NCBI GenBank assembly: GCA_019056435.1
Contig: CP077641.1
Coordinates: 62,001-126,000, forward strand
Direction of reading: 5' to 3'
Length of the DNA: 64,000 nucleotides
Source of the DNA: Stutzerimonas stutzeri
GTDB taxonomy: Bacteria; Pseudomonadota; Gammaproteobacteria; Pseudomonadales; Pseudomonadaceae
Below the pieces are notes generated by a model, which was not told the origin of the DNA, did no database searches, and worked only from the letters and a program-made list of their open reading frames with translations. Both the position numbers and the translations under genes were made by a program. The number at the start of each line of letters is the position of its first letter. Position 1 is the stretch's first letter. Shown one piece after another: positions 6,279 through 23,524 of the stretch.

Positions 6279-7832
6279 ATGTCCGACTCATCCACCGCCC
6301 GGCTGCAGCTTCGAGGCATCACCAAGCAGTACCCGGGCTGCCTGGCCAACGACCGCATCGACCTGTCCATCGAACCTGGCGAGATCCATGCGCTGCTGGG
6401 CGAGAACGGCGCAGGCAAGAGCACGCTGATGAAGATCATCTACGGCGTGACGCAGCCGGACGCCGGGCACATCGTCTGGCAGGGCGAGCCGGTCGTCATG
6501 CGCGACCCGGCACAGGCGCGCGAACGCGGCATTGGCATGGTGTTCCAGCACTTTTCACTGTTCGAGACGCTGACCGTGGCGGAGAACATCGCCCTTGCGC
6601 TGGGGGCCGCGGCCGGCTCACCCAGGCAGCTGGAGCCGAAGATCCGTGAGGTGTCCAAGCGCTACGGCATGCCGCTCGAACCGCACCGCCTGGTGCACAG
6701 CCTGTCGATCGGCGAGCGCCAGCGAGTGGAGATCGTCCGCTGCCTGATGCAGGACATCAAACTCTTGATCCTCGACGAACCCACCTCGGTGCTCACGCCG
6801 CAGGAAGCCGATGATCTCTTTGTCACCCTGCGCCGCCTGGCCGGCGAAGGCTGCAGCATCCTGTTCATCAGCCACAAGCTCAACGAAGTACGGGCCCTGT
6901 GCCAGACGGCCACCGTCTTGCGTGGCGGCAAGGTGTCCGGAGACTGCATACCGGCCGAATGCTCGGATCTGCAACTGGCACGGCTGATGGTCGGCGACGC
7001 CGAAGGGCTCGAAGCGGAGTACCCAAAGGCCGAGGGCGCGGCGCCCTTCCTGCGTGTCGAGCGTCTGTCCTGGCACAACGCCGACCCGTTCGGCGTGTCA
7101 CTGCGCGAGGTCGACCTCGAAGTCCGCGCCGGCGAGATCGTGGGCATTGCCGGCGTGGCCGGCAACGGTCAGGACGAACTGCTCGCCCTGCTCAGTGGCG
7201 AACGTCTGCTGGTGCCGAGCGAAGGCGACACGATCCGCTTCCTCGATGACCCGGTCGCACACCTGCGGCCCGACGCGCGCCGGCGCCATGGCATGGCTTT
7301 CGTGCCGGCCGAGCGCCTGGGCCACGGCGCCGTGCCAAGCATGAGCCTGGCCGACAATGCCCTGCTCACCGCGTACCAGCAGCGCGGAATGCTGGGCAAG
7401 GGGCTGATCCAGCGCAGCCGGGTCAAGGCGTTCGCCGAGCGCATCATCCAGCGCTTCGCCGTGAAGACGCCGGACGCCGAAACCACCGCGGCCAGCCTGT
7501 CCGGTGGCAACCTGCAGAAGTTCATCCTGGGTCGCGAGATCCTTCAGCAACCCAAGCTGCTGATCGCCGCGCACCCGACCTGGGGCGTCGACGTCGGCGC
7601 CGCCGCGGCGATCCATCGGGCGCTGATCGAGCTGCGCGACGCCGGCGCCGCCATCCTGGTGATTTCGGAGGACCTGGAAGAACTGTTCCAGATCAGCGAC
7701 CGGATCGCCGCACTCAGCCACGGCGCGCTGTCGGCCCAGTACCCGATCGCGAGCACCACGCCGGCGGAAGTCGGGCGCTGGATGGCCGGCCAGTTCGATA
7801 CCCGCATTCCCGCATCAACTCCCGCTGCCTGA
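6279..7832 (+). CDS. ABC transporter ATPase, nucleoside/BMP type (duplicated ATPase)
   Basis: The 517-aa protein has two fused ABC domains, like RbsA, YufO and other carbohydrate/nucleoside importers. Domain 1 has a full Walker A (GENGAGKST, about residue 46), Q-loop (VFQHFSLF), signature LSIGERQRVEI and Walker B (LLILDEPTSVL). Domain 2 (from about 255) has the degenerate Walker A typical of the family (GVAGNGQDELL) and signature LSGGNLQK. It energises the two permeases that follow. The pattern ATPase-permease-permease is that of purine nucleoside transporters with a BMP-type lipoprotein, but no such binding protein is adjacent here. Frame intact. Confidence 0.88.
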   Translation: MSDSSTARLQLRGITKQYPGCLANDRIDLSIEPGEIHALLGENGAGKSTLMKIIYGVTQPDAGHIVWQGEPVVMRDPAQARERGIGMVFQHFSLFETLTVAENIALALGAAAGSPRQLEPKIREVSKRYGMPLEPHRLVHSLSIGERQRVEIVRCLMQDIKLLILDEPTSVLTPQEADDLFVTLRRLAGEGCSILFISHKLNEVRALCQTATVLRGGKVSGDCIPAECSDLQLARLMVGDAEGLEAEYPKAEGAAPFLRVERLSWHNADPFGVSLREVDLEVRAGEIVGIAGVAGNGQDELLALLSGERLLVPSEGDTIRFLDDPVAHLRPDARRRHGMAFVPAERLGHGAVPSMSLADNALLTAYQQRGMLGKGLIQRSRVKAFAERIIQRFAVKTPDAETTAASLSGGNLQKFILGREILQQPKLLIAAHPTWGVDVGAAAAIHRALIELRDAGAAILVISEDLEELFQISDRIAALSHGALSAQYPIASTTPAEVGRWMAGQFDTRIPASTPAA

Positions 7833-7845
7833 CGAGACCGCCTCA

Positions 7846-8947
7846 ATGCTGCTAACCCTCGAACCGCGCGGCCAGCAGTCGCGCGCCATGCTCTGGTTCT
7901 CGCCGCTGCTGGCGGCCCTGCTGACCCTGCTCAGCGGCGCACTGCTTTCGCGGTCCTCGGCCATCCGCCTCTGGAGACGCTGAAGGTGCTGCTGATCGAT
8001 CCGGTGAGCGACCTCTACGGCCTCTCCGAGCTGCTGGTCAAGGCACTGCCGATCATGCTTTGCGCGCTTGGCCTGGCGGTGGTCTACAGCGCCCGCATCT
8101 GGAACATCGGGGCAGAAGGCCAACTGCTGATCGGCGCGCTCGCCGGCAGCGCCGTGGCGGTCAATATCATCGAATGGGAAAGTCAGTGGGCACTGGTCAT
8201 CACGCTGCTGGTCGGCACCCTCGGCGGCGCAGCGTGGGGGCGCTGTGCGCCTGGTTGAAGACGGCGTTCAACGCCAACGAAATCCTCACCAGCATCATGC
8301 TCAACTACATCGCGTTGAACCTGCTGCTGTTCTGCGTCCACGGGCCGCTGAAAGACCCGGAAGGCTTCAACTTCCCGGAATCCGCCATGTTCGGCGACGC
8401 CACCCGCCTGCCGCAGATCGTCGAGGACCTGCGTGTCCACGGCGGCCTGTACTTCGCCCTGCTGGCACTGGTCGCGGTCTGGGTCCTGCTGCAGCGCAGC
8501 TTTCTCGGCTTCCAGATCAAGGTCATGGGGCTCGACAAGCGCGCGGCGGGCTTCGTCGGCTTCCGTGACAAATGGCTCGTCTGGGTCACCCTGCTGATCA
8601 GCGGCGGACTCGCCGGCCTGGCCGGTGTCGCGGAAGTCACCGGCCCCATCGGCCAACTCGTGCCGCAGGTCTCGCCGGGCTACGGCTATGCGGCGATCAC
8701 CGTCGCGTTCCTCGGACGGCTGCATCCGCTGGGCATCGTCTTCGCCAGCCTGCTGATGGCGCTGCTGTACCTGGGCGGTGAAAACGCCCAGATGGCCGCC
8801 AATCTGCCGCAATCCATCACCCAACTGTTCCAGGGGATGGTGCTGTTCTTCTTGCTGGCGTGCGATGTGCTGATTCTGTATCGCCCGCGTCTCAAGGGCA
8901 TCGCAAAGCTCAAGGCGGGCCGCTCGACGAAGGAAGCCACGGCATGA
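7846..8947 (+). CDS. ABC transporter permease 1, nucleoside type (two frame breaks)
   Basis: This is an inner-membrane permease of the BPD_transp_2 family, partner of the preceding ATPase. Three pieces in different frames join into one 367-aa protein. Adding one T to the T-run at 7946-7948 turns the early stop into LLFAVLGHPPLETLKVLL. Adding one G to the run at 8236-8240 gives GAAWGALCAWLKTAFNANE. Family motifs are present (IWNIGAEGQLLIGA; NANEILTSIMLNYIA; the late GYGYAAITVAFLGRLHP). It begins 13 nt after the ATPase stop, so it is in the same operon. The breaks are probably base-calling errors, given clean continuation on each side. Confidence 0.85.
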
Positions 8948-9014
8948 CCCGGACCTCAACCCTTTCTATTTCCAGCCTCATGCCTCCAGCCTTAGACGGC
9001 ATCCGGGAGTAACC

Positions 9015-9940
9015 ATGGACATCGACCTGCTGACCAACATCTTCTACGCCATGATCCGCACCGGTACGCCGCTACTGCTGGTCGCGCTCGGCGAGCTCGT
9101 CTGCGAAAAGACCGGTGTCCTCAATCTCGGCCAGGAAGGCATGATGCTGTTCGGTGCAGTGATCGGCTTCATGGTCGCCTTTTCCACCGGCAATCTCTGG
9201 CTCGGCGTGCTGTTCGCCTGCCTCGCCGGGGTGCTGCTCTCGTTGCTGTTCGCCATGGTTGCGCTGGGCTTCAACGCCAATCAGGTGGCGACCGGGTTGG
9301 CCCTGACCATCTTCGGGGTCGGCCTGTCATCCTTCGTTGGCGCGAGCTGGTGGGCAAGCCACTGGCCGGGTTCGAGCCGATCGCCATCCCATTGCTCGCC
9401 GACATTCCGGTGATCGGGCGGATGCTGTTCGCCCAGGATCTGCTCGTCTACCTGTCCTTCGCGCTGTTCGCCCTGGTCGCCTGGGTGCTGCTGAAAAGCC
9501 GCATCGGCCTGATCATCCAGGCCGTCGGCGAGAACCCGAACGCGGCCAGCGCCATGGGCCTGCCGGTGCTGCGCGTACGCACCCTGGCCGTCATGTTCGG
9601 CGGCGCCATGGCGAGCCTCGCCGGCGGCTACATGTCCCTGGCCTATACCCCGATGTGGGCGGAAAACATGACCGCAGGCCGCGGCTGGATCGCCCTGGCG
9701 CTGGTGGTGTTCGCCAGTTGGCGCGTCAGCCGCGTGCTGCTCGGCGCCTACCTGTTCGGTCTCGCCAGCATCCTGCATCTGGTCGCCCAGGGCATTGGCC
9801 TCGCCATCCCCGGCAACCTGCTGGCGATGCTGCCGTATGTGGCCACCATCCTGGTGTTGGTCATCCTGTCGAGGGATGCGATCCGCACCCGGCTCTACGC
9901 ACCGGTTTCGCTCGGCCAGCCCTGGCAACCGGGGCATTGA
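9015..9940 (+). CDS. ABC transporter permease 2, nucleoside type (frame break)
   Basis: This is the second membrane subunit of the nucleoside-type importer, repaired length 308 aa, with about eight hydrophobic segments. The family motif NLGQEGMMLFGAV near residue 40 and NANQVATGLALTIFG are clear. The frame breaks at the GG of 9349-9350; one extra G gives FVGASWVGKPLAGFEP and joins both halves. A GGAG ribosome site precedes the ATG. It lies 67 nt after permease 1, same operon. No BMP-type binding protein follows; the next gene is an unrelated dehydrogenase. Confidence 0.85.
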
Positions 9941-13404: not shown

Positions 13405-15443
13405 ATGTCCGAAGCTCGCCAGATCCTCGTTACCAGTGCCCTGCCCTACGCCAACGGTTCGATCCACCTTGGCCACATGCTCGAGTACATCCAGACGGAC
13501 ATGTGGGTGCGGTTCCAGAAGCTGCGCGGCAACCAGTGCATCTACGTCTGCGCCGACGACGCCCATGGCTCGGCCATCATGCTGCGCGCCGAGAAGGAAG
13601 GCATCACGCCGGAACAGCTCATCGCCAACGTCCAGGCTGAACACAGCAAGGACTTTGCCGACTTCCTCGTCGACTTCGATAATTTCCATTCGACCCATTC
13701 GGACGAGAATCGCGAGCTGGCCGAATTGATCTACACCCGCCTCAACGAAGCCGGCCACATCGCCACCCGCTCGGTGACCCAGTACTTCGACCCTGAAAAG
13801 GGCATGTTCCTCGCCGACCGCTTCATCAAGGGCACCTGCCCGAAGTGCGCCGCCGAAGACCAGTACGGCGACAACTGCGAGAAGTGCGGCGCGACCTACG
13901 AGCCCACCGACCTGAAGAATCCACGCTCGGCCATCTCCGGCGCCACGCCTGTGCTGCGCGATTCAAAGCATTTCTTCTTCAAGCTGCCCGACTTCGAGGC
14001 CATGCTGAAGGAATGGACCCGCGGAGGCAGCCTGCAGGAATCGGTCGCCAACAAGATCGCCGAATGGCTCGACGGCGGCCTGCACGAGTGGGACATCTCC
14101 CGCGATGCGCCCTACTTCGGCTTCGAGATCCCGGGCGAGCCCGGCAAATACTTCTACGTCTGGCTGGACGCGCCGATCGGCTACATGGCCAGCTTCAAGA
14201 ACCTCTGCGCGCGCCGCCCGGAGCTGGATTTCGATGCCTTCTGGAAAAAGGACTCGACCACCGAGCTCTACCACTTCATCGGCAAGGACATCATCAACTT
14301 CCACACCCTGTTCTGGCCCGCCATGCTCGAAGGCGCCGGCTTCCGCAAGCCCACCGCCGTCGCGGTGCATGGCTACCTGACGGTGAACGGGCAGAAGATG
14401 TCCAAGTCGCGCGGCACCTTCATCAAGGCGCGCACCTACCTGGAACACCTGAACCCGGAGTACCTGCGCTACTACTACGCCGCCAAGCTTGGCCGCGGCG
14501 TGGACGACCTGGACCTCAACCTCGAGGACTTCGTGCAGAAGGTCAATTCCGACCTGGTCGGCAAGGTGGTCAACATCGCCAGTCGCTGCGCCGGCTTCAT
14601 CCACAAGGGCAACGGCGGCCTGATGGTCGATCGCAATGCCGCACCGGAACTCAGCGACGCCTTCCTGGCGGCCGCGCCTTCCATCGCCGAAGCCTATGAA
14701 AGCCGCGATTTCGCCCGCGCCATGCGCGAAATCATGGCCCTGGCCGACCGCGCCAATGCCTGGATCGCCGACAAGGCACCCTGGGCCCTGAACAAGCAGG
14801 AAGGTATGCAGGATGAGGTGCAGGCGATCTGCGCCACCGGTATCAACCTGTTCCGCCAGCTGGTGATTTTCCTCAAGCCGGTGCTGCCGAACCTGGCCGC
14901 CGACGCCGAGCGCTTCCTGAACGTCCAGCCGCTGGGCTGGGCTGACCTGCAGACACCGCTGGCCAACCATCAGTTGAACGCCTTCACCCCCTCCTGACCC
15001 GTATCGAGCCTGCAAAAATCGACGCCATGATCGAAGCCTCCAAGGAAGACCTCGCCGCCACCGAAACCACCGCGCCTGCTGGCAACGGTGAATTGACGAA
15101 GGAGCCGCTGGCTGCCGAGATCGCTTTCGACGCTTTTGCCGCCGTGGACCTGCGCATCGCGCTGATCGAGAAGTGCGAGTTCGTCGAAGGCGCCGACAAG
15201 CTGCTGCGCCTGACCCTCGACATCGGCGATGCCAAGCGCAACGTGTTTTCCGGCATCAAGAGCGCCTACCCGGACCCAAGCAAGCTGGAAGGTCGCCTGA
15301 CCCTGTACGTCGCCAACCTCGCCGCGCGCAAGATGAAGTTCGGCGTCTCCGAAGGCATGGTGCTGGCCGCCGGCCCCGGTGGCGAAGAAATCTACCTGCT
15401 CAGCCCGGACAGCGGCGCCAAACCCGGCCAACGCGTCAAGTAA
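13405..15443 (+). CDS. metG: Methionyl-tRNA synthetase MetG (frame break before C-terminal domain)
   Basis: MetG charges tRNA-Met. The HIGH-type motif (HLGHM), the Cys4 zinc knuckle ([17 protein letters not shown]) and KMSKS ([10 protein letters not shown]) are all present. Read straight, it stops at 14997. The C-terminal tRNA-binding/dimerisation domain ([20 protein letters not shown]) continues in another frame to 15443. One C added to the C-run at 14987-14991 joins [12 protein letters not shown] and yields 679 aa, the normal Pseudomonas length. This is an essential gene, so I infer a sequence error, though a separately translated C-domain (ATG at 15027) is formally possible. Confidence 0.94.
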
Positions 15444-15455
15444 TGACGTAGCATG

Positions 15456-15486
15456 AGAAGCCCGGCGCAATGCCGGGCTTCTTTTT
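15456..15486 (+). terminator. Rho-independent terminator of metG
   Basis: The stem AGAAGCCCGGC / GCCGGGCTTCT with a 5-nt loop runs into five T, 12 nt after the metG stop. Confidence 0.93.
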
Positions 15487-15523
15487 CGATTCCAACCAAC
15501 CGCTTCACCACCCGGAGCCGGTT

Positions 15524-15892
15524 ATGACCCATACGCCCGATCCCAGCAGGCCGTTGAAGAACGTGGCCGAGGCAGGCAAGACAAGGCAAAAGCAGCCGGA
15601 CACGCGGACCGGGCTGGCCTGCGAGTCAGGTGCTCTAAATGAACATTCCGGGGCTGTTTTCAACGACGTATCGCCAGCGCAGGTACCTTTACAGCCGCCG
15701 GCTAATCGATGCCCGATTTGTGGCGAGCCGAATCAATGCAGCCTCAGCAACCCCGCGACCGCCACGCACGCATGCTGGTGCTTCACCACCGAGATAGCGC
15801 CCGAAGCCCGCGAACGGATTCCGGCAGATGCACAGGACAAAGCCTGCATCTGCCCACGCTGCGCGCGCGGTGAGCTGCCTGAAAAACCCTGA
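15524..15892 (+). CDS. Cysteine-rich CWC-family protein
   Basis: The 122-aa protein ends in a compact Cys-rich domain: CPICGEPNQCSL, then HACWCF (the CWC signature), then ACICPRCARG. This pattern of paired cysteines suggests a small zinc- or cluster-binding fold; the family's role is unknown. About 65 N-terminal residues are low-complexity and longer than usual for the family, but no internal Met offers a shorter start, and GGAG precedes the chosen ATG. Its stop overlaps the rsuA start (TGATG), so the two genes are translationally coupled. Confidence 0.75.
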   Translation: MTHTPDPSRPLKNVAEAGKTRQKQPDTRTGLACESGALNEHSGAVFNDVSPAQVPLQPPANRCPICGEPNQCSLSNPATATHACWCFTTEIAPEARERIPADAQDKACICPRCARGELPEKP

Positions 15893-16584
15893 TGCGCCTC
15901 GACCGCTTTCTCGCCAACCTCCCCGCCTGCAGCCATCGCCAGGCACGCCTGCTGCTGGCGTCGGGCCGCGCTTCGGTAAACGGGCAGCCCGTACGCGACG
16001 GCACCCATGACATCCGTGTGTTCGACCGCATCGAGCTGGACGGCGAGCTGTTGCAAGCCGGCAAGCCCGCACGCTTCTACATGCTGAACAAACCCGCCGG
16101 CTGCGTCAGCGCCACCGCCGATCCAGCGCATCCCACCGTGCTCGACCTGTTGAACGAGCCTGACAAGGCCGAGCTGCATATCGCCGGCCGGCTGGACTTC
16201 AACACCACGGGCCTGATGATCCTCACCAACGACGGCCTCTGGTCCCGCCGCCTGACCCAGCCGGAAAGCCTGCTGGGCAAAACCTATCTCGTGGAAACCG
16301 AAGACCCCATCGACCCGATCTGCGTCGAGCGCTTCGCACAGGGCTTGTATTTCGGCTACGAGAACCTCACCACACGGCCCGCTGAACTCCAGCTGCTTGG
16401 CTCGCGCCAGGCGCGCCTGACCCTGCACGAAGGCCGCTACCACCAGGTCAAACGCATGTTCGGCCACTTCAACAACAAGGTCACCGCCCTGCACCGCGAA
16501 CGCATGGGCCCGCTCACCCTCGACCCCACCCTCGCGCCCGGCCAATACCGCCGCCTGACGCCAGCAGAAATCGACCCCATCTGA
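15892..16584 (+). CDS. rsuA: 16S rRNA pseudouridine synthase RsuA family
   Basis: The 230-aa enzyme has an N-terminal S4 RNA-binding domain (MRLDRFLANLP...) and an RsuA/RluE catalytic domain. The catalytic motif GRLDFNTTGLMILTNDG contains the nucleophilic Asp, and KRMFGHFNNKV is the conserved late motif. RsuA makes pseudouridine 516 in 16S rRNA. RsuA rather than RluE is judged from the S4 domain and overall length. The start overlaps the stop of the CWC gene. Confidence 0.88.
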   Translation: MRLDRFLANLPACSHRQARLLLASGRASVNGQPVRDGTHDIRVFDRIELDGELLQAGKPARFYMLNKPAGCVSATADPAHPTVLDLLNEPDKAELHIAGRLDFNTTGLMILTNDGLWSRRLTQPESLLGKTYLVETEDPIDPICVERFAQGLYFGYENLTTRPAELQLLGSRQARLTLHEGRYHQVKRMFGHFNNKVTALHRERMGPLTLDPTLAPGQYRRLTPAEIDPI

Positions 16585-16652
16585 ACCAACCGGCGAATAG
16601 TCTCGCCAACCGCTTCAACTCGGCCCCCGCTTCTGGTAAAAAGGCACCCATC

Positions 16653-16726
16653 GCGGGCGTCGTATAATGGCATTACCTGAGCTTCCCAAGCTCATGACGA
16701 GGGTTCGATTCCCTTCGCCCGCTCCA
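16653..16726 (+). tRNA. tRNA-Gly (anticodon CCC)
   Basis: The 74-nt cloverleaf has a 7-bp acceptor stem (GCGGGCG / CGCCCGC), anticodon stem TGAGC/GCTCA with loop TTCCCAA (anticodon CCC at 16685-16687), T-arm GAGGG-TTCGATT-CCCTT and an encoded CCA end. It reads GGG codons. The sequence closely follows E. coli glyU, and a terminator follows. The accessory segment begins directly after it, making its 3' end a likely integration site. Confidence 0.97.
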
Positions 16727-16732
16727 GATCAG

Positions 16733-16759
16733 AAAAGCCCTGCACTTGCAGGGCTTTTT
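16733..16759 (+). terminator. Rho-independent terminator of tRNA-Gly
   Basis: The stem AAAAGCCCTGC / GCAGGGCTTTT with a 4-nt loop and a T-run starts 7 nt after the CCA end. Confidence 0.92.
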
Positions 16760-16811
16760 CGTTTAGGGTTTGGCTTGTTTCGGTTGGGGTTACATAAGGG
16801 CTTTGGGAAAG

Positions 16812-16830
16812 ATAAATCTGTCCCCTTTTC
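16812..16830 (+). repeat. Left arm of 19-bp inverted repeat flanking the PHP/ATPase segment
   Basis: The 19-mer ATAAATCTGTCCCCTTTTC here is exactly complementary to 19457-19475. The pair brackets a 2.6-kb AT-rich segment. From memory, this motif recurs in gammaproteobacterial genomes near REP-associated (Y1/RAYT) transposases; none is present here. Confidence 0.85.
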
Positions 16831-16852
16831 CTACAATCAAAACGCGGGATAG

Positions 16853-16907
16853 CAATCACTAAGGAAGTAGCTAGGCGCTGGTTTTCCCAAAGGACGGGTA
16901 GTGATTG
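16853..16907. repeat. 9-bp inverted repeat with 37-nt spacer
   Basis: CAATCACTA (16853-16861) is the exact complement of TAGTGATTG (16899-16907). It lies just inside the left arm of the larger inverted repeat. It could be part of a REP-like hairpin element or a binding site; no function can be assigned. Confidence 0.5.
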
Positions 16908-16972
16908 GACTTAGAAAATGAGCGCGGGGCTCCGGAGAGCACTGGCCCGAGAGAAGCTAAGAGTTAAGAGTG

Positions 16973-16988
16973 GCGGCCGATAGGCCGC
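16973..16988. terminator. Short GC hairpin downstream of the accessory operon
   Basis: The stem GCGGCC / GGCCGC with a GATA loop lies 33 nt beyond the stop of the leftward small gene. There is no T-run on the minus strand, so a terminator role is only a guess. Confidence 0.35.
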
Positions 16989-17020
16989 TCTCTACAAATA
17001 TAGAGGTTAAAGCCCCGACG

Positions 17021-17311
17021 TCACGCCTTATACTTCTCATACTCTTCCAAGTAAAGGCGCTCAGATTCATCACGAAACTGATTTCGTTTCTGATGCAAAT
17101 CTATGAGCTTCATACTGATGCTTTTATATATTATTTGGTGAGCTTGGTTTTTGAGTTTTTCCTCATCGTACTCATCGACCTCAAAAGCATCCTCCAGGGC
17201 TAAACTAACCAGCCTCAACAAAACTATCCTATCAATCTTGTCAACTGTATCGTACTCGCCTTCTGCCGTTAAGAAGTAACCTTGATGGTTTTCAATTTTT
17301 AATGCTTTCAT
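17021..17311 (-). CDS. Small acidic protein coupled to the PHP-ABC ATPase
   Basis: The 96-aa protein is rich in Glu, Lys, Tyr and Leu, with no signal peptide or membrane segment. It starts MKALKIENHQGYFL and contains a short stretch resembling a beta pair (GYFLTAEGEYDTVDK), followed by a long predicted helix. The ATG at 17311 has an AAAGG ribosome site 8 nt upstream and overlaps the end of the ATPase gene by 20 nt, so translation is probably coupled. I do not recognise a family. By position it could be a regulator, partner or inhibitor of the ATPase. Base composition matches the ATPase gene and differs from the chromosome. Confidence 0.65.
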   Translation of the reverse strand: MKALKIENHQGYFLTAEGEYDTVDKIDRIVLLRLVSLALEDAFEVDEYDEEKLKNQAHQIIYKSISMKLIDLHQKRNQFRDESERLYLEEYEKYKA

Positions 17312-19315
17312 ATCCAGCCTTTCTCTCCATGTAGGCATCTTCGCCTGCTTCCAACGAGTCCATGGTCACCTGAAAATTGTTTATCCTTTTACCATCAGTC
17401 GACTTCAGCTCGCTATCTGATGGATGCCCAGAGTATCTTCTATATACAATTTTTCCCCCTTCAATCTCTTTGGCGGCGTATATCATATAATCAGCCTTGA
17501 TTGATGCGCCAACTACGCTATTGTGCGTAACAATGACAACAGGCATATTTCTAGAAATTTCCTTTAGCATCTGATTAACCTCGCTTTTGAGAAAGAGGTT
17601 ATCAAATGAAGACTCCGGCTCGTCTATCAACAGATAGTCAAAGTACTGAGCGTTCTTTATTTCTTGCAGCAATCTAAACTCGGACCTCTCACCGCCAGAA
17701 ACCGTAAACCCATCTTTATTTAGTATCTCATAGTCGATACAAGCAAAATACTTATAGAATTCAGATGGAGTCAGACCATCGCTTGCCTTTAAAACTGCAA
17801 GATATTTGTAAGGATTAGAGTACTCTTTGAATGCATCACTAAACGCAACCCTCTGGCCACTCAGGTTCTTGATTTCACCAGCCCCAGAAAAAGCACGCTG
17901 TTTACAGACAACCTTAAACCCCTGAAAGCTCTCCTCAAATATAACTTTCTCTTCCTGTAGGAGCTTAGCAATTTCGTTGAATCTGGATATTTTCTTATGT
18001 TCCAGCATAACATTGTAAAGATCGACATCCTTCACTTGGGTAGCCGATGTCCTTAACTGCAACTTGCTTTTAACATCGCGCATAACGTCGTTAACAAGAC
18101 ACTTTTTCTTTCTCTCATATGCCTTCGACCATAGAAGCACTATCAGTTCGCAAGCCAAGGCTTTTAGGCCACTTACATCAACATGCCTATCAATAATATC
18201 TCTATATTCAATATTCTCTATTAATTGACGCACTGAGCTAATTAGGTCATTAAGAGTACGATCTTCACCCACCTCGAACAACGTCTCATTAAACAACGCA
18301 ACCTTAGAGAATGAGTCAAGTTTTTGAGCTTCTTCTGCCGACTTCAAAAGACTCTCGAGGTATTCTGCCACCTTGCGCCGATTAACATCGATATCAATGT
18401 TAAGCACATCATCCAATACAGTTTTGAATGGAGTTAAATGTTTATCCGCCAAGGTACTCTTCTGACGAGCCACATCCGCATTGAACTCCTTCTCGTAGCT
18501 TGCATCATCACGCTGAACAAGGGAGAACTGTCGAATGTATTTTACATTTTCGCAGTCGTTATTTATTTGGGTTAATGTTACAGTTTTTCCTGAAGACCTA
18601 GCTCCAAGAACAATATTTAGCCCTGTTGAAAGCTTCTGTCCATCTTCAAAAACTTGAAACAGGGAATTTCCATCCGATTTAGATAGCGCCACTTTTGACC
18701 TATCACGAAAACTGAACTTCAAAGATTTTAGGGATAGCTCTCCACAATCTATGTAAGTCTGCCTCATTGGAAACTTGCTCATACCCTCAAAAATTCGCAC
18801 ATCACTAAAAATCACCGGTGTTAGCTCGGTATCATCCTTTGCCATGCGAACAAATTTTTAGGGCTATCAACTTCACCAGCAGAGATAAACCCCCTAAGCC
18901 TCTTAATGGTTTCCGCATGGAGGCTAGGTCTTTTCTCGTAATGGGGTATTACTAGATAATTATTCAGATCACCAAAAATCTGAATCAACTCATCAAAAGT
19001 AATAAAGTCGCCTACATTTACAACTTTCCGCGATACAGCATTTGCTTTTAATTGAAAGTCGTCTAGATTCTCCCTCTCAGATATTACTAGAACATGACCA
19101 CTTTCTAGATTTATCTCAATACCTGGAAACACAACACAATCCACCGCATCAACAATTTCGTTGAACTGGGAAAGGTCAAACATGTCATGATTTGTTATAG
19201 CTATGGCATCCAGCTCCGCTGATTCCACATACTGCTTTAGTTTATCCAATGAAAACTGAAAGTACGTTTCACTAACCGTTGGGATAGTATGCATATGAAG
19301 GTCAATTTTCTTCAA
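17292..19315 (-). CDS. PHP-domain plus ABC/SMC-type ATPase, TrlF-like (one frame break)
   Basis: The repaired protein is 674 aa. The N-terminal 130 residues form a PHP phosphoesterase domain with its metal ligands: H7 and H9 (DLHMHT), H43-D44 (TNHD), E67 (GIEIN), H74 and H125 (PHYEK). After the junction comes an SMC/RloC-like ABC ATPase: Walker A GARSSGKT, a helical insert, signature SGGERS, Walker B LLIDEPESSFDN and H-loop VIVTHNS. Read straight, the PHP part stops at about 18821 and the ATPase part restarts with an overlapping ATG at 18845. One base in the AAATTTTT run at 18852-18859 joins them (SPKKFVRMAKDD). The TTG start has GGAG 7 nt upstream. The architecture resembles TrlF-type ATPases linked to restriction and defence loci. 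Function here is inferred. Confidence 0.8.
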
Positions 19316-19456
19316 TTCTTCACTCCATAAATAACCAGAAGAAAATAATAATCAAAAGCAATTCGCACGCGCCACGGCATAAAAACTTGCGGAGACAGCG
19401 GAATAACTGGAATAAACTATTGAATATAGCTACACCACCCGGCGTTCAGAAAAAGC

Positions 19457-19475
19457 GAAAAGGGGACAGATTTAT
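19457..19475 (-). repeat. Right arm of 19-bp inverted repeat
   Basis: This is the exact reverse complement of 16812-16830. It lies 12 nt from the stop of the parE-type toxin gene and marks the boundary where base composition returns toward the chromosomal value. Confidence 0.85.
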
Positions 19476-19487
19476 TTAGCGCCACCG

Positions 19488-19823
19488 CTAGGGGACCTGC
19501 TCCACATCTTCTTGGAGCCAAGACGGAATATCGCTCTTCCCGTGCAGTACGCGCCAAATTTCGATGTGGCTCGGACGCTCTACGTAGAACACCACGTAAG
19601 GATATCGCTTGATCGGCCAAGATCGGAGCCCTGGTAGATTGAGCTCATGTGCGTAGCGGCTGGAGCCAGAACCCGGATGCCGACTGAGCCGATTGTAGGC
19701 ATGCTCCAACGCATCAATCAGCCCCAGCGCCGCCTTATCGGCCTCTTGCTCCAAGTAGTAGGCTATCGCCCGATCAACGTCCTCGCGTGCTAGCGCTCTC
19801 GGAATGACTGGCTTTTGCTTCAT
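19488..19823 (-). CDS. ParE/RelE-superfamily toxin
   Basis: The 111-aa protein has the RelE/ParE fold signature: an N-terminal helix pair (ALAREDVDRAIAYYLEQ), HPGSGSSRY, then the C-terminal sheet WPIKRYPYVVFYVERPSHIEIWRVLHGKSDIP, where the Arg of RVLHG is the typical late Arg. ParE toxins poison DNA gyrase, RelE toxins cut mRNA; the ParD-like partner favours ParE. Its start overlaps the antitoxin stop (ATGA), the standard coupled arrangement. Confidence 0.88.
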   Translation of the reverse strand: MKQKPVIPRALAREDVDRAIAYYLEQEADKAALGLIDALEHAYNRLSRHPGSGSSRYAHELNLPGLRSWPIKRYPYVVFYVERPSHIEIWRVLHGKSDIPSWLQEDVEQVP

Positions 19824-20056
19824 CCGCGAGCATTCCGAACCCGATCACGCAGGGATTCGAAGTAGTCGGCATCAATAGGAGCAGTCGGAGCCGAGGCGGC
19901 ACCCGCCAATAGCAACCCTCGGAGATGCTGGCGGTCCTGGTCCTTGCGGATCAACTCGCGGACGTATTCACTACTGGTGCCGTAGCCACGCTGATTGACC
20001 TGCTCATCCACAAAACTCTTCAGCGCATCCGGAAGGGATATGTTCATGGTGCTCAT
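19820..20056 (-). CDS. ParD/CopG-type antitoxin
   Basis: The 78-aa protein starts with a ribbon-helix-helix DNA-binding domain (MNISLPDALKSFVDEQV, then YGTSSEYVRELIRKDQD) and continues with a flexible C-terminal tail that would wrap the toxin. The start at 20056 is chosen over an upstream in-frame codon; the Met three residues downstream is also possible. It lies directly upstream of, and coupled to, the toxin gene. Antitoxins of this type repress their own promoter; a candidate operator lies at 20094-20110. Confidence 0.87.
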   Translation of the reverse strand: MSTMNISLPDALKSFVDEQVNQRGYGTSSEYVRELIRKDQDRQHLRGLLLAGAASAPTAPIDADYFESLRDRVRNARG

Positions 20057-20070
20057 ACTGTCAGCCCCGC

Positions 20071-20110
20071 TTGGCAAAATTTGGCAAGCGCACTTTAGCG
20101 CGACGCTAAA
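20071..20110 (-). promoter_or_regulatory. Candidate ParD operator
   Basis: TTTAGCG-CGA-CGCTAAA (20094-20110) is a perfect 7-bp palindrome with a 3-nt centre, 38 nt upstream of the antitoxin start. Between them is a direct repeat of TTGGCAA (20071 and 20081). Paired sites like these suit autorepression by a ribbon-helix-helix antitoxin, but this is inferred from position and symmetry only. Confidence 0.5.
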
Positions 20111-20167
20111 CGGGCTGTCGACATCACGAGTCCCTGCTGCGACGAAACGGAACGCCGCCCTATGTCC

Positions 20168-20546
20168 TTAAGCACTAATGGCCTTGGCTAAGAAGAAGCT
20201 GATCAGCAGAAACGCGAAGACTACTTCGCTCAACTTTTTTATAGGGCTCACAGGAGGCATAGTTAAAAAAGAACCCCAACAGACCGACGCCAACCAGCGC
20301 AGCTAGCACAGCGTACCCGGCCCACAGTGAGTCGACAGAGAGAGCGAAACCGACACGAGCGTTTGGAACCTCAAGCTTTCCGGTTTCAACAGTGGTAAGA
20401 GCGATCTTTGCAATCAGAGCGATGAACCCCAGAGAGAACGCCCGGACGAGCAGAAGCTCCAGAATAGAGACGTCATCTACCGAATCTGCCTTGGTCCTGT
20501 CGGTTGCGTTTGGTCTGGAACGCCGAAAGAGATCGCGCAAGTACAT
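20168..20546 (-). CDS. Small membrane protein, unknown family (probable frame break)
   Basis: Read straight, the protein is 123 aa and stops at 20175, with a polar N-terminus and two membrane segments (about residues 30-50 and 73-95). Its last 20 residues look random. Dropping one T from the T-run at 20235-20240 instead gives a third hydrophobic segment (LSEVVFAFLLISFFLAKA) ending at 20168, total 125 aa. That is a more natural end, so I suspect an inserted base. An AAGGA site precedes the ATG. No family is recognised. It lies in the accessory segment between ParDE and the curlin gene. Confidence 0.5.
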
Positions 20547-20993
20547 CCTTTCGTCCTTGAAGGGTCAATAGCGCGCAAAGATACGCCTAGACGACGAGGC
20601 CAGCCAAGGGCTAATGGTCGGTGTCGATAAAGTGCCGAAATCACTGTGACGCATTGCGACGAAACGAGCAGGCGAGATAGCTGGAAACCCCGTAACGACA
20701 CGCTTTGAGACGGAACGACACACCAAGCAAAAAGGCTTCGATTCCCTCGCCCACCCAACTTCCGAAGCGTCCTTAAAGCGAAGCTTGGCGCTCGGAGATT
20801 CGTTGCGGGCGAACGAGGACGCATTCTCCGCTCCTAGGACATGCCGTGAGGCTGAACGGCCACTTAAGACCTAATCCCGTGCCGCCCATCACTTGATCCG
20901 TTCGGCCTATATCGCGAGGGCGATTGCGCGACAACACTCCTTTTGCTTCGCCTGTGATGTACGGAGCCCATCCAATGCAAACAGGAGAGTTCA
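20547..20993. other. 447-base intergenic region at the island edge
   Basis: I find no convincing gene here. The region contains the tRNA-3'-end-like sequence at 20734-20757 and, at its right end, the ribosome site of the curlin gene. TGCGACGAAACG occurs at about 20650 and a near copy at about 20138, a minor short repeat. Confidence 0.5.
20734..20757 (+). repeat. Possible degenerate copy of the tRNA-Gly 3' end (att remnant)
   Basis: GGCTTCGATTCCCTCGCCCA followed by CCCA resembles the tRNA-Gly 3' end at 16701-16726, with one base missing in the T pair and a few differences near the CCA. It lies 4 kb from the tRNA on the same strand, as an attachment-site copy would. The match is imperfect and partly the generic T-arm motif, so the call is tentative. 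Confidence 0.35.
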
Positions 20994-22028
20994 ATGAACA
21001 GATCAATCGCTTTGTCCGCCGCGATCTGGCTGGCGTTAAACGGCCATGCGCTGGCCAACGGGCATGTGGCCGAGGTGGAGCAGACCGGCCTCGACAATCG
21101 CGCGGAACAGACGCAGAGCGGCGTCATGCAGCGATCGTTCATCGCGCAGGACGGCGTTGCGAACAGCGCCATCACGAACCAGACCGGGGCCAGCAGCGCG
21201 AGCGGTCAGGCACGGGTCGAGCAGATCGGGTCGCTCAATTCGGTCGAGGTCTACCAGGTGAACGGCAGCCAGCCAGGCACGGCGGACGCGCAGGTGTACC
21301 AGGCGGGCACGTCGAACAGCGTCATGCTCGAGCAGCAGGCCTACCTGGGTGAGCTGGTCAGCACGGCGCGCATTGAGCAGGACGGCACGGGCAACCAACT
21401 CGAAGCCAGACAAGCCTGGGTGGGCAACCAGCTCGAGGCGGTGTCCAGCGGACAGGACAATCGCGTGCAGGTCGATCAGTCCGGGTTCAGCACGGCCAGC
21501 ATTCAACAGACCGGCACGGCCAACCAGGTGCAGTTGGAGCAGGTCAGCGGCGGTCTGGGGGGCGGTGCTGCGGAAATCGAGCAGGACGGCACCGGCAACC
21601 AGGCATTCATCCTGCAAATATCCGGACGCTACCCGGCGGCCGATGTGTCTCTCGACCAGGTGGGCGTGGCCAACATCGCACGCGTCGAGACACGGGACGG
21701 CTACAGTGCGCTGGCTTACACGCAGCGCGGTAGCGGAAACGAGCTCGACGCGTACATGGTCGGGCAGAACAGCAACCTGAGCGGGTATTCGGAAGGCGAT
21801 TACAACCGGGTCTCGACCTCGCAGGTCGGCGATGGCAACCAGCTGGATATCGCGCAGGTAGGGGACTACAACCGGATCGAGGCCTCGCAGGGTTTCGAGG
21901 CCAACGAAGCGATGATCAGCCAGACGGGGCAAGGCCACCAGGCCTTTCTGACGCAGTCGCTGGGTAGCCATACGGCCAGTATTGTCCAGACCGGCAACGG
22001 CAACCTGGCGAACGTCGTGCAGCAATAG
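20994..22028 (+). CDS. Curlin-repeat secreted protein (amyloid candidate)
   Basis: The 344-aa protein has a signal peptide ending near ALA-NG (about residue 22). It is then built almost entirely of about fifteen curlin-like repeats of the form G-x-x-N-x5-Q: TGLDNRAEQTQ, DGVANSAITNQ, SGQDNRVQVDQ, TGTANQVQLEQ, VGDGNQLDIAQ and others, ending TGNGNLANVVQQ. Such repeats stack into beta-helical amyloid in CsgA/CsgB. No csgBDEFG-type genes are next to it. GGAG precedes the ATG. The neighbour hydrolase gene is convergent. It could be an extracellular matrix subunit secreted by a curli machine encoded elsewhere, or a standalone relative. Confidence 0.85.
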   Translation: MNRSIALSAAIWLALNGHALANGHVAEVEQTGLDNRAEQTQSGVMQRSFIAQDGVANSAITNQTGASSASGQARVEQIGSLNSVEVYQVNGSQPGTADAQVYQAGTSNSVMLEQQAYLGELVSTARIEQDGTGNQLEARQAWVGNQLEAVSSGQDNRVQVDQSGFSTASIQQTGTANQVQLEQVSGGLGGGAAEIEQDGTGNQAFILQISGRYPAADVSLDQVGVANIARVETRDGYSALAYTQRGSGNELDAYMVGQNSNLSGYSEGDYNRVSTSQVGDGNQLDIAQVGDYNRIEASQGFEANEAMISQTGQGHQAFLTQSLGSHTASIVQTGNGNLANVVQQ

Positions 22029-22117: not shown

Positions 22118-23524
22118 TCAGTTTTCCGGGCAGGCCGGCAGCAACGCGCGGGTCGGTACGCCTTCGTTGCGAGTGAAGGTGCAACCGTACGCCGGATCGG
22201 CCACGACACGCGGGTTCAGCACTTCGTCACCCGCCGGCTTGATGCCCTCCTGCTCCCAGCGCAGCATGTCCGCCATGGCCTCGACCTGCTCCTGGTAGCT
22301 GAAGTCGCAGTGGCTGGGCGCACGGATCGCGCGTTGCACGAGTAGCTCACCGTTGCCGTTGGCCTCGGCGTTGCGCCGGTAGATCTGCTGGTGCTTGAAC
22401 GGCACGTAGAGGTCACCCAGGGTGTGAATGCTGACCACCGGGACGTTGAACTGGCCATTGACCACCGGAATCCAGCGCAGGCCATCCGGGCGGATGCTGT
22501 TGGCCGGGGCGTAGCCGATGACGCGGATGATGGAGTCGTTGAACTCGCGTTCCTCGCGGGACATCGCCTTGTTCGTGTCGAACTGATAGCGCGTGGCGAG
22601 GTTGCCGGACAGCGAATCGGCGAGGATGCCGTCGACGGTGCCGTCCCGCCCGCCAGTGCCGAGCACGACGCTCTGCAGGCTGGTGCGGAAGCCCTCGGCG
22701 AAGATCGGCCGATCGCCACCGCTGAGCTCACGGACGATGCCTTCGAGCTTCTCGCCTTGCGGCGAAGGATCGGTGGGATAGCTGTCCCACAGCGCGCCGA
22801 TGATCTGCGGCAGCTTGGCCTGGAAGTCGGTCGCCGGGAAGCTGGTCGGCCCCTGCCCCGCCAGATGTTGCGCGGCCAGGGTGAAGTTCATCAGGTACTC
22901 GAACTCGTAAACGTCGCCGGTCACGCCGCACATGGGCACCGAGCCGTCGTACACGACGCGGTTGTTGGCCGTCGCGTAGGTTTCGGCCTCGACGGCAGCG
23001 GCCGCGACATGGCCGCCCATTGAATGGCCGGTGATATAGGTCTTGCTCGGCGCAGCCTTGCCGGTCAGCTCACTGAAGGCCAGCGCCAGCGCGTTGGTGT
23101 CTTCGATGCCGGCGCGCACATCGTAGTAGTTCTTGCTGTAGCTGGAGGCGGCCCAGGCGTAGCCCTGCTGAAGCAGCCAGGGGCGGATCGGGGGCGGCCC
23201 GACCGTGAGCTCCGGTCCCTGCCCACGAAACCCATGGGCGTACATGACCAGCATGCCGTTCCAGTTCGGCGGTACCTCGATCTGGTAGGACGAGCCCTCG
23301 TAGATGCCCGTCCAGCGTTCGCTGGGCAAGCCGGGAAGCTCGGCCAGCGGTGACACGATGGGGACGAAGACACGTGAATCCTGCGCGCGAGATTCGCTGT
23401 GCGAGACCGGCGGTTTGATGGGTCTGGGGCGGGCGTTCGCATCGGCCGCGACGCCGATCGTGCCGAGGATCATCACGCCGGCAAGGGCGCGTGCGCAGGC
23501 CGAAGCCAGGTTGCTTGGACGCAT
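22118..23524 (-). CDS. Secreted alpha/beta hydrolase
   Basis: The 468-aa protein has an N-terminal signal peptide (about residues 1-32, hydrophobic LAGVMILGTIGVAADANA). The lipase-type nucleophile elbow GHSMGGH has Ser168; YAHGFRG supplies the oxyanion HG. HTLGDLYVP and APSHCDF are the likely Asp and His of the triad. Four or more Cys suggest disulfides, in keeping with export. The start at 23524 is chosen for its GGAG site and the signal peptide. It could be an esterase, lipase or polymer depolymerase; substrate unknown. Confidence 0.8.
   Translation of the reverse strand: MRPSNLASACARALAGVMILGTIGVAADANARPRPIKPPVSHSESRAQDSRVFVPIVSPLAELPGLPSERWTGIYEGSSYQIEVPPNWNGMLVMYAHGFRGQGPELTVGPPPIRPWLLQQGYAWAASSYSKNYYDVRAGIEDTNALALAFSELTGKAAPSKTYITGHSMGGHVAAAAVEAETYATANNRVVYDGSVPMCGVTGDVYEFEYLMNFTLAAQHLAGQGPTSFPATDFQAKLPQIIGALWDSYPTDPSPQGEKLEGIVRELSGGDRPIFAEGFRTSLQSVVLGTGGRDGTVDGILADSLSGNLATRYQFDTNKAMSREEREFNDSIIRVIGYAPANSIRPDGLRWIPVVNGQFNVPVVSIHTLGDLYVPFKHQQIYRRNAEANGNGELLVQRAIRAPSHCDFSYQEQVEAMADMLRWEQEGIKPAGDEVLNPRVVADPAYGCTFTRNEGVPTRALLPACPEN

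Follow-up and report, generated by a model that had tools for sequence, protein, structure and literature searches.

A mobile two-gene PDC-M49 pair beside tRNA-Gly in Stutzerimonas stutzeri: a candidate immune module of a PHP-ABC ATPase and a small partner protein

A 64,000-nt stretch of the Stutzerimonas stutzeri genome (contig CP077641.1, positions 62,001 to 126,000; hereafter the window) carries two overlapping genes that match the PDC-M49 pair of the PADLOC catalogue: a large gene (A) that joins a PHP phosphoesterase domain to an ABC/SMC-type ATPase, and a gene for a 96-aa partner (B). The two genes occur together in every locus that we read, are under purifying selection, and have spread across phyla, moving in some lineages as a single integron-type cassette. 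We lean slightly towards the reading that PDC-M49 is a mobile immune module in which A would be a compact Ppl-like nuclease and B its regulator; nuclease activity, gating by NTPs, the role of B, and protection from phage are the parts of this reading that we infer.

On the minus strand, the PHP frame is followed by the ABC ATPase frame and then by B (Table 1). Several features of the initial annotation were confirmed directly: the pair is AT-rich (G+C of 0.385–0.405 for its pieces vs. 0.623 for the whole window), tRNA-Gly and ParDE are its neighbors, and the small gene overlaps the ATPase half by 20 nt.

Table 1. Features of the PDC-M49 locus and its surroundings, in window coordinates.
Feature	Position	Strand	Remark
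PHP half of PDC-M49A, 164 aa as read	18821..19315	-	residues 1-157 are the family match
ABC/SMC-type ATPase half of PDC-M49A, 517 aa	17292..18845	-	PADLOC PDLC04680 match and alignment
PDC-M49B, 96-aa partner	17021..17311	-	PADLOC PDLC04682
A/B overlap, 20 nt	17292..17311	-	conserved to Enterococcus; preceded, within A, by a purine-rich, ribosome-binding-like stretch
Frame-change region of A	18821..18845	-	probable assembly error
tRNA-Gly(CCC)	16653..16726	+	flanks variable insertion site
Inverted repeat, 19 nt, left arm	16812..16830	+	dispersed genus repeat, not module end
Inverted repeat, 19 nt, right arm	19457..19475	+	dispersed genus repeat, not module end
ParE	19488-19823		
ParD	19820-20077		
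metG	13405-15443		frame-split near 14990

The family of both genes was assigned with PADLOC models, those matched being PDLC04678-04680 for A and PDLC04681-04683 for B. The PHP piece of A aligned to positions 1-157 of the 674 in PDLC04680 (E 4.9e-73) and the ABC piece to positions 158-674 (E 1e-241), the two together spanning the model. The small protein, which had been described as having no family, is PDC-M49B: it matches PDLC04682 over positions 1-95 of 97 (E 8.4e-39) and lies next to A. Both window genes thus match along nearly all of their length and keep the adjacency and gene order of PDC-M49, with no difference in kind; what sets the window copy apart is that it is frame-split in this assembly and sits at tRNA-Gly. 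The Pfam PHP model scored 20.8 bits on the PHP piece, under its cut-off of 26.4; the combined PHP phosphoesterase and ABC/SMC-type ATPase content recognized at the outset is nonetheless confirmed by the PADLOC matches and by motif alignment.

All four ABC motifs reported for the large gene (GARSSGKT, SGGERS, IDEPESSFDN, and THNS) are present. The ABC piece holds the Walker A, signature, Walker B, and H-loop motifs together with the last PHP motif, FSDVR. The PHP metal ligands had been called intact, and D, HxH, NH, GxE, and PHY are, but the last motif reads SDxR and not SDxH. Across an alignment of 16 homologues (intact proteins, some almost identical, with identity down to about 40%), the PHP D, HxH, NH, E of GxE, a later H, PHY, and SD are invariant, and the last motif is SDxR, vs. 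SDxH in Ppl-like and TrlF proteins. The forms of A from Staphylococcus (L157, L158) have SDAH and have lost PHY, with the other PHP residues and the ABC motifs kept. Judging from these alignments, the PHP site seems to trade motifs, with PHY plus SDxR in one group and SDAH without PHY in Staphylococcus. The Walker B motif differs as well, being DEPE in PDC-M49A and DQPE in Ppl-like and TrlF proteins, so the ATPase cycle of A may differ from that of Ppl. Taken together, the altered last PHP motif and Walker B suggest that the chemistry of A may be different from that of Ppl.

All 24 loci read, from Pseudomonadota to Bacillota (the window, L002-L012, L013, L053, L058-L061, L082, L083, L157-L159, and L162), have B together with A. 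Most of these were located via A, and L082 and L083 via B. Co-occurrence of the small gene with PHP-ABC homologues elsewhere, a prediction of the two-gene view, therefore held. The A/B overlap is 20 nt in 22 loci and 23 nt in two Staphylococcus loci, and its bases are almost fixed from Pseudomonas to Enterococcus. B starts with ATG in all 23 loci compared, preceded in many of them by a purine-rich, ribosome-binding-like stretch (AAGGAG, AGAAAGG) inside A. At the position homologous to the window start, A begins with TTG in 19 of 23 loci and with ATG in the other four; an in-frame ATG lies 12 nt upstream in nine of the TTG loci and 51 nt upstream in one, while the window copy starts with TTG and has no in-frame ATG or GTG upstream. 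Profile comparison shows the B proteins of the Staphylococcus group to be remote homologues (probability 94.7, E 6e-8). As modeled with AlphaFold (pLDDT 74), B has small strands and a long C-terminal helix, and a fold search of the PDB with this model gave no convincing match (best E 0.7). The model of A was too poor for use (pLDDT 45).

Selection was evaluated against the other carrier in the genus (G022). Ka/Ks values were 0.064 and 0.073 for the two halves of A and 0.095 for B, indicating purifying selection on all three pieces; a misframed row, B_nonoverlap, was excluded. Because Ka/Ks is this low (0.06-0.10) and 11 relatives share 68-81% identity along the entire ABC half, the gene pair is not a chance arrangement of reading frames.

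The ATPase had been related to TrlF, RloC, and PrrC types. RloC and PrrC combine an ATPase with an HNH or HEPN-type anticodon nuclease domain; no RloC or PrrC match and no HNH or HEPN family was found in Pfam, NCBIfam, or PADLOC at E 1, and this part of the claim was not supported. The ATPases of PARIS (AriA), Septu (PtuA), and MADS gave marginal matches, mostly in the ATPase core; these systems have no PHP domain and use separate effector proteins. What stood was a remote link to TrlF and Ppl. TrlF shares the PHP plus ATPase content, and four intact relatives of A scored 46-105 bits against the TrlF model (NCBIfam NF045780), under its cut-off of 350; the window pieces scored 20.5 and 39.6 bits, so A is not a TrlF by this model. 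A and TrlF align over 259 C-terminal columns with 25% identity. The stretch from Walker A to signature is about 450 residues in TrlF vs. about 300 in PDC-M49A, and, unlike PDC-M49, the two TrlF loci that we read have no small overlapping gene annotated.

A TrlF protein in turn matches the Ppl model (NCBIfam NF042955) at 125 bits, and by this chain, from PDC-M49A through TrlF to Ppl, the nearest validated kin of A is Ppl. The likeness lies in an N-terminal PHP domain followed by an ABC/SMC-type ATPase, with motifs in common with two Ppl-like proteins that themselves score below the Ppl cut-off. The intact relatives of A carry the PHP metal centre and the ATPase in one chain, as Ppl does, with the last H replaced by R. 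The Ppl model has 882 positions compared with 674 for PDC-M49A. The window pieces did not match it at E 1 (cut-off 1000 bits), four A relatives did not match it at E 1e-5, and it found nothing in this genome at E 1e-40. Ppl is described in a review as a single-gene anti-phage nuclease (PMC12904381), whereas PDC-M49 consists of two genes. The same review presents Ppl as a single-stranded DNA 3'-5' exonuclease: NTPs in the PHP domain and in the NTPase domain inhibit it, and a shortage of nucleotides together with 3'-OH ends triggers it (PMC12904381).

The pair is rare in close relatives and widely scattered beyond them. A was found at a strong score in 2 of 56 genus genomes, this one and G022, in both cases beside the same tRNA-Gly; 18 other genus genomes had only weak ATPase-type matches. 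B was found in 3 of 398 genomes of the family and in 2 of 369 genomes of a class sample, this genome counted in each. The locus is thus not core genome, in keeping with the initial view. Other carriers are Moraxellaceae, Marinobacter, Gilvimarinus, Saccharospirillum, Colwellia, Desulfuromusa, and Endonucleobacter, with plasmid carriage in Rhizobium, Phaeobacter, Enterococcus, and Staphylococcus; a plasmid search with A at E 1e-5 gave 56 records. The module is present in one contig of a virus collection; a phage collection gave no match at E 1e-5, and B was not found in viral contigs. Across 11 hosts, A has a G+C of 0.30-0.39, compared with flanking values of 0.36 to 0.61.

The AT-richness and location had been taken as signs of recent acquisition. 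This was not borne out for the genus, since the G022 copy sits at the same site and Ks between the two copies is about 1.0-1.3, near saturation (1.17 for the neighboring gene at 22118 and 0.45-0.67 for five other genes). The site itself is one of turnover, holding integrases and some defence-type genes. We read beyond tRNA-Gly in 33 of the 54 module-free genus genomes: the next anchor gene was 0.6-8 kb away in 15, about 11 kb away in one, and not found in 17. Among the 134 cargo ORFs scanned (of 162; those dropped were mostly short or repeated), seven were phage integrases, and the matches listed included one ORF each for a DNA methylase, AbiEi, DzbA, DzbB, SoFic, and capP.

The perfect 19-nt inverted repeat that brackets the module is present as described, but the view that it marks acquisition was not supported. 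With at most one mismatch, the repeat occurs in 43 of 56 genus genomes and 11 times in this genome, and is absent from G022. We therefore ruled out that the arms are transposon ends, the repeat being dispersed in the genus and lacking in the module-carrying G022. A 20-base core pattern of the repeat forms close inverted pairs in some genus genomes.

Evidence for movement of the pair as a unit came from distant hosts. The Marinobacter (L005) and Gilvimarinus (L007) loci share one block, 7463-9930, at 98.5% identity; the rest of the 17.5 kb compared does not align between them. One end of this block is a GTTATAC site 67 nt before A, and the other is the terminal GTTA of an attC-like site starting 43 nt downstream of B; it is exactly one integron-type cassette, an observation new here. 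Sites of this kind also follow B in L012 (9914-9979) and L162 (genome G882, 86 nt after B). None followed B in the other 16 of 20 loci, G022 included; none was on the opposite strand in the 20 loci; and shuffled sequences gave 0 to 0.6 sites per locus. Because the site definition was made after viewing L005, L007, L012, and L162, these four do not constitute an independent count (an earlier, stricter scan found none in 20 loci, its definition being too strict). Independent support for the cassette reading is that the identity block ends exactly at both cassette ends. An Rfam search of four loci found nothing at the attC-like sites. The window copy has no attC-like site in 14001-22000 and is not itself an integron cassette by this measure. 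A TwoAYGGAY RNA (Rfam RF01731) lies at 6338-6502 (minus strand) of L007, just upstream of the Gilvimarinus cassette.

Integron integrases over the cut-off were present, at the level of whole genomes, in 8 of 16 genomes searched, including Marinobacter, Gilvimarinus, and Endonucleobacter; those in G022, G604, and G310 lie at a great distance from the module or on a different contig. No integrase over the cut-off was found in G882, despite its attC-like site. This genome has a partial, sub-cut-off integrase match (205 bits, possibly frame-split) at G000:C1:2031596-2032030. A gammaproteobacterial locus (L004) and a Desulfuromusa locus (L006) are 89.4% identical over the pair alone. Pseudomonas sp. 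H1h has two module copies (L009, L011), which share 97.7% identity across 5.3 kb and differ in their outer flanks. The pair thus stands, as first proposed, as a two-gene unit, one that is horizontally mobile and placed here at a variable tRNA site.

Through its matches to PDC-M49A and PDC-M49B, the pair already has a catalogue entry as a phage-defence candidate. According to two papers, PDC entries in PADLOC are unpublished or unvalidated candidates from a guilt-by-embedding approach (PMC11811056, PMC12988326), and our literature search found neither a paper naming PDC-M49 nor a demonstrated defence function for it. Four of the seven plasmid loci read have neighbors named AbiH, abortive infection, or TIR plus SIR2. 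Around the 14 relatives, no defence-island enrichment was seen by count: a handful of 140 flanking ORFs matched PADLOC (17 models, one member each) compared with 12 models of one or two members each for 140 random core ORFs, whose matches were mostly to generic ATPases and helicases. ORF numbers are inexact because the scan does not tell which ORF matched, and the 140 flanking ORFs are from 153, with 13 from the second Pseudomonas H1h copy (L011) excluded. Of the proposed two-gene defence or nuclease-sensor module, then, the unit, its mobility, and its listing as a defence candidate are supported, and a defence role for the PDC-M49 pair is what these would suggest.

The assembled sequence raises the question of whether A is functional in this organism at all. 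The large PHP-ABC gene of the initial annotation holds as a union of domains and not as one open frame in this assembly, where a single change puts the two halves in different frames. If A were truly out of frame, only fragments of the PHP and ATPase parts would remain beside B. The split does stand in the assembled sequence, and a remote A on the Enterococcus faecium plasmid LC799788.1 (L159 4040-6080) is likewise in two overlapping frames, with another break point; five E. faecium plasmid records of this split type were listed, and H7 and H8, among the 30 plasmid rows listed, match A in two pieces and are perhaps split too. However, 11 named-genome relatives, G022, and all other close copies that we read have A as one open frame, and Ka/Ks of both halves is low. 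Frame splits are, moreover, found throughout this assembly: over about 400 kb compared, 31 of 160 G022 genes and 26 of 139 G036 genes are split here, vs. 3 of 165 and 0 of 181 between G022 and G036 themselves (ORFs of at least 200 aa and at least 60% identity, controls counted alike; a few may be shadow ORFs). Reverse queries with the ORFs of this genome gave 4 of 136 and 6 of 135. Among the split genes are metG and one of 1298 aa, and the stated completeness of this genome is 94.3, with only two of 55 relatives not higher. The split of A is thus most likely an assembly error and A is probably intact in the organism; we regard a pseudogene as improbable. With about a fifth of the compared genes split, frame breaks in this genome should not be taken for pseudogenes, and the record should be corrected in that a split A in this assembly is poor evidence of decay. 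Programmed frameshifting was ruled out on the basis of the unsplit close copies, the different E. faecium break point, and the assembly-wide splits.

The constant pairing of two overlapping genes, together with plasmid and integron-type carriage (including the plasmid records above), would also fit a toxin-antitoxin or addiction module, with A a toxic nuclease and B its antitoxin, kept for the stability of mobile DNA. We think this unlikely, as the effector comes first and the regulator second, A is a large ATP-driven enzyme, the two TrlF loci read have no small overlapping gene annotated, Ppl is described as single-gene, and the pair is a defence candidate in PADLOC. Some PHP proteins are phosphatases and others RNases, and the flanks of close relatives are no richer than random ORFs in PADLOC matches; both points would fit A as an accessory housekeeping or stress nuclease or phosphatase, acting in nucleotide or RNA end processing, with no specific anti-phage role. 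The very patchy presence of the pair, the low G+C of A across hosts with differing flanks, its movement as one unit across genera and phyla, and the Abi-type neighbors in the plasmid loci argue against such an enzyme and make it, in our view, quite unlikely.

We return to an immune module with a Ppl-like nuclease. As modeled on Ppl, NTPs (ATP or other) in the ABC head and PHP site would hold the nuclease of A quiet, and phage infection would activate A through a fall in NTPs, exposed DNA ends, or both. The active PHP centre would degrade nucleic acid, possibly as a 3'-5' exonuclease by analogy with Ppl, and this activity would halt the phage or the cell. B would be a regulatory subunit devoted to A and, most likely, a governor keeping A inactive until the trigger. 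The gene order and the overlap point to this role. Start codons offer a weaker argument: with its own ATG and a ribosome-binding-like stretch inside A, B can be made separately and may exceed A, which in the window starts with TTG, but the upstream ATGs in 10 of the 19 TTG loci make the true start of A uncertain there.

More broadly, it is possible, though we put this forward only tentatively, that PDC-M49 represents a class of immune nucleases that sense nucleotides and DNA ends, are governed by a small protein through an overlap kept from Pseudomonadota to Bacillota, travel across phyla as an integron cassette, and can settle at tRNA sites. If A and B work as proposed above, PDC-M49 would amount to a compact relative of Ppl that has gained a protein switch, and host-safety control of PHP-ATPase immune nucleases would be testable with two genes in about 2.3 kb. 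Integron-type carriage is one route by which the pair has spread, and it links a defence candidate to a known gene-capture system.
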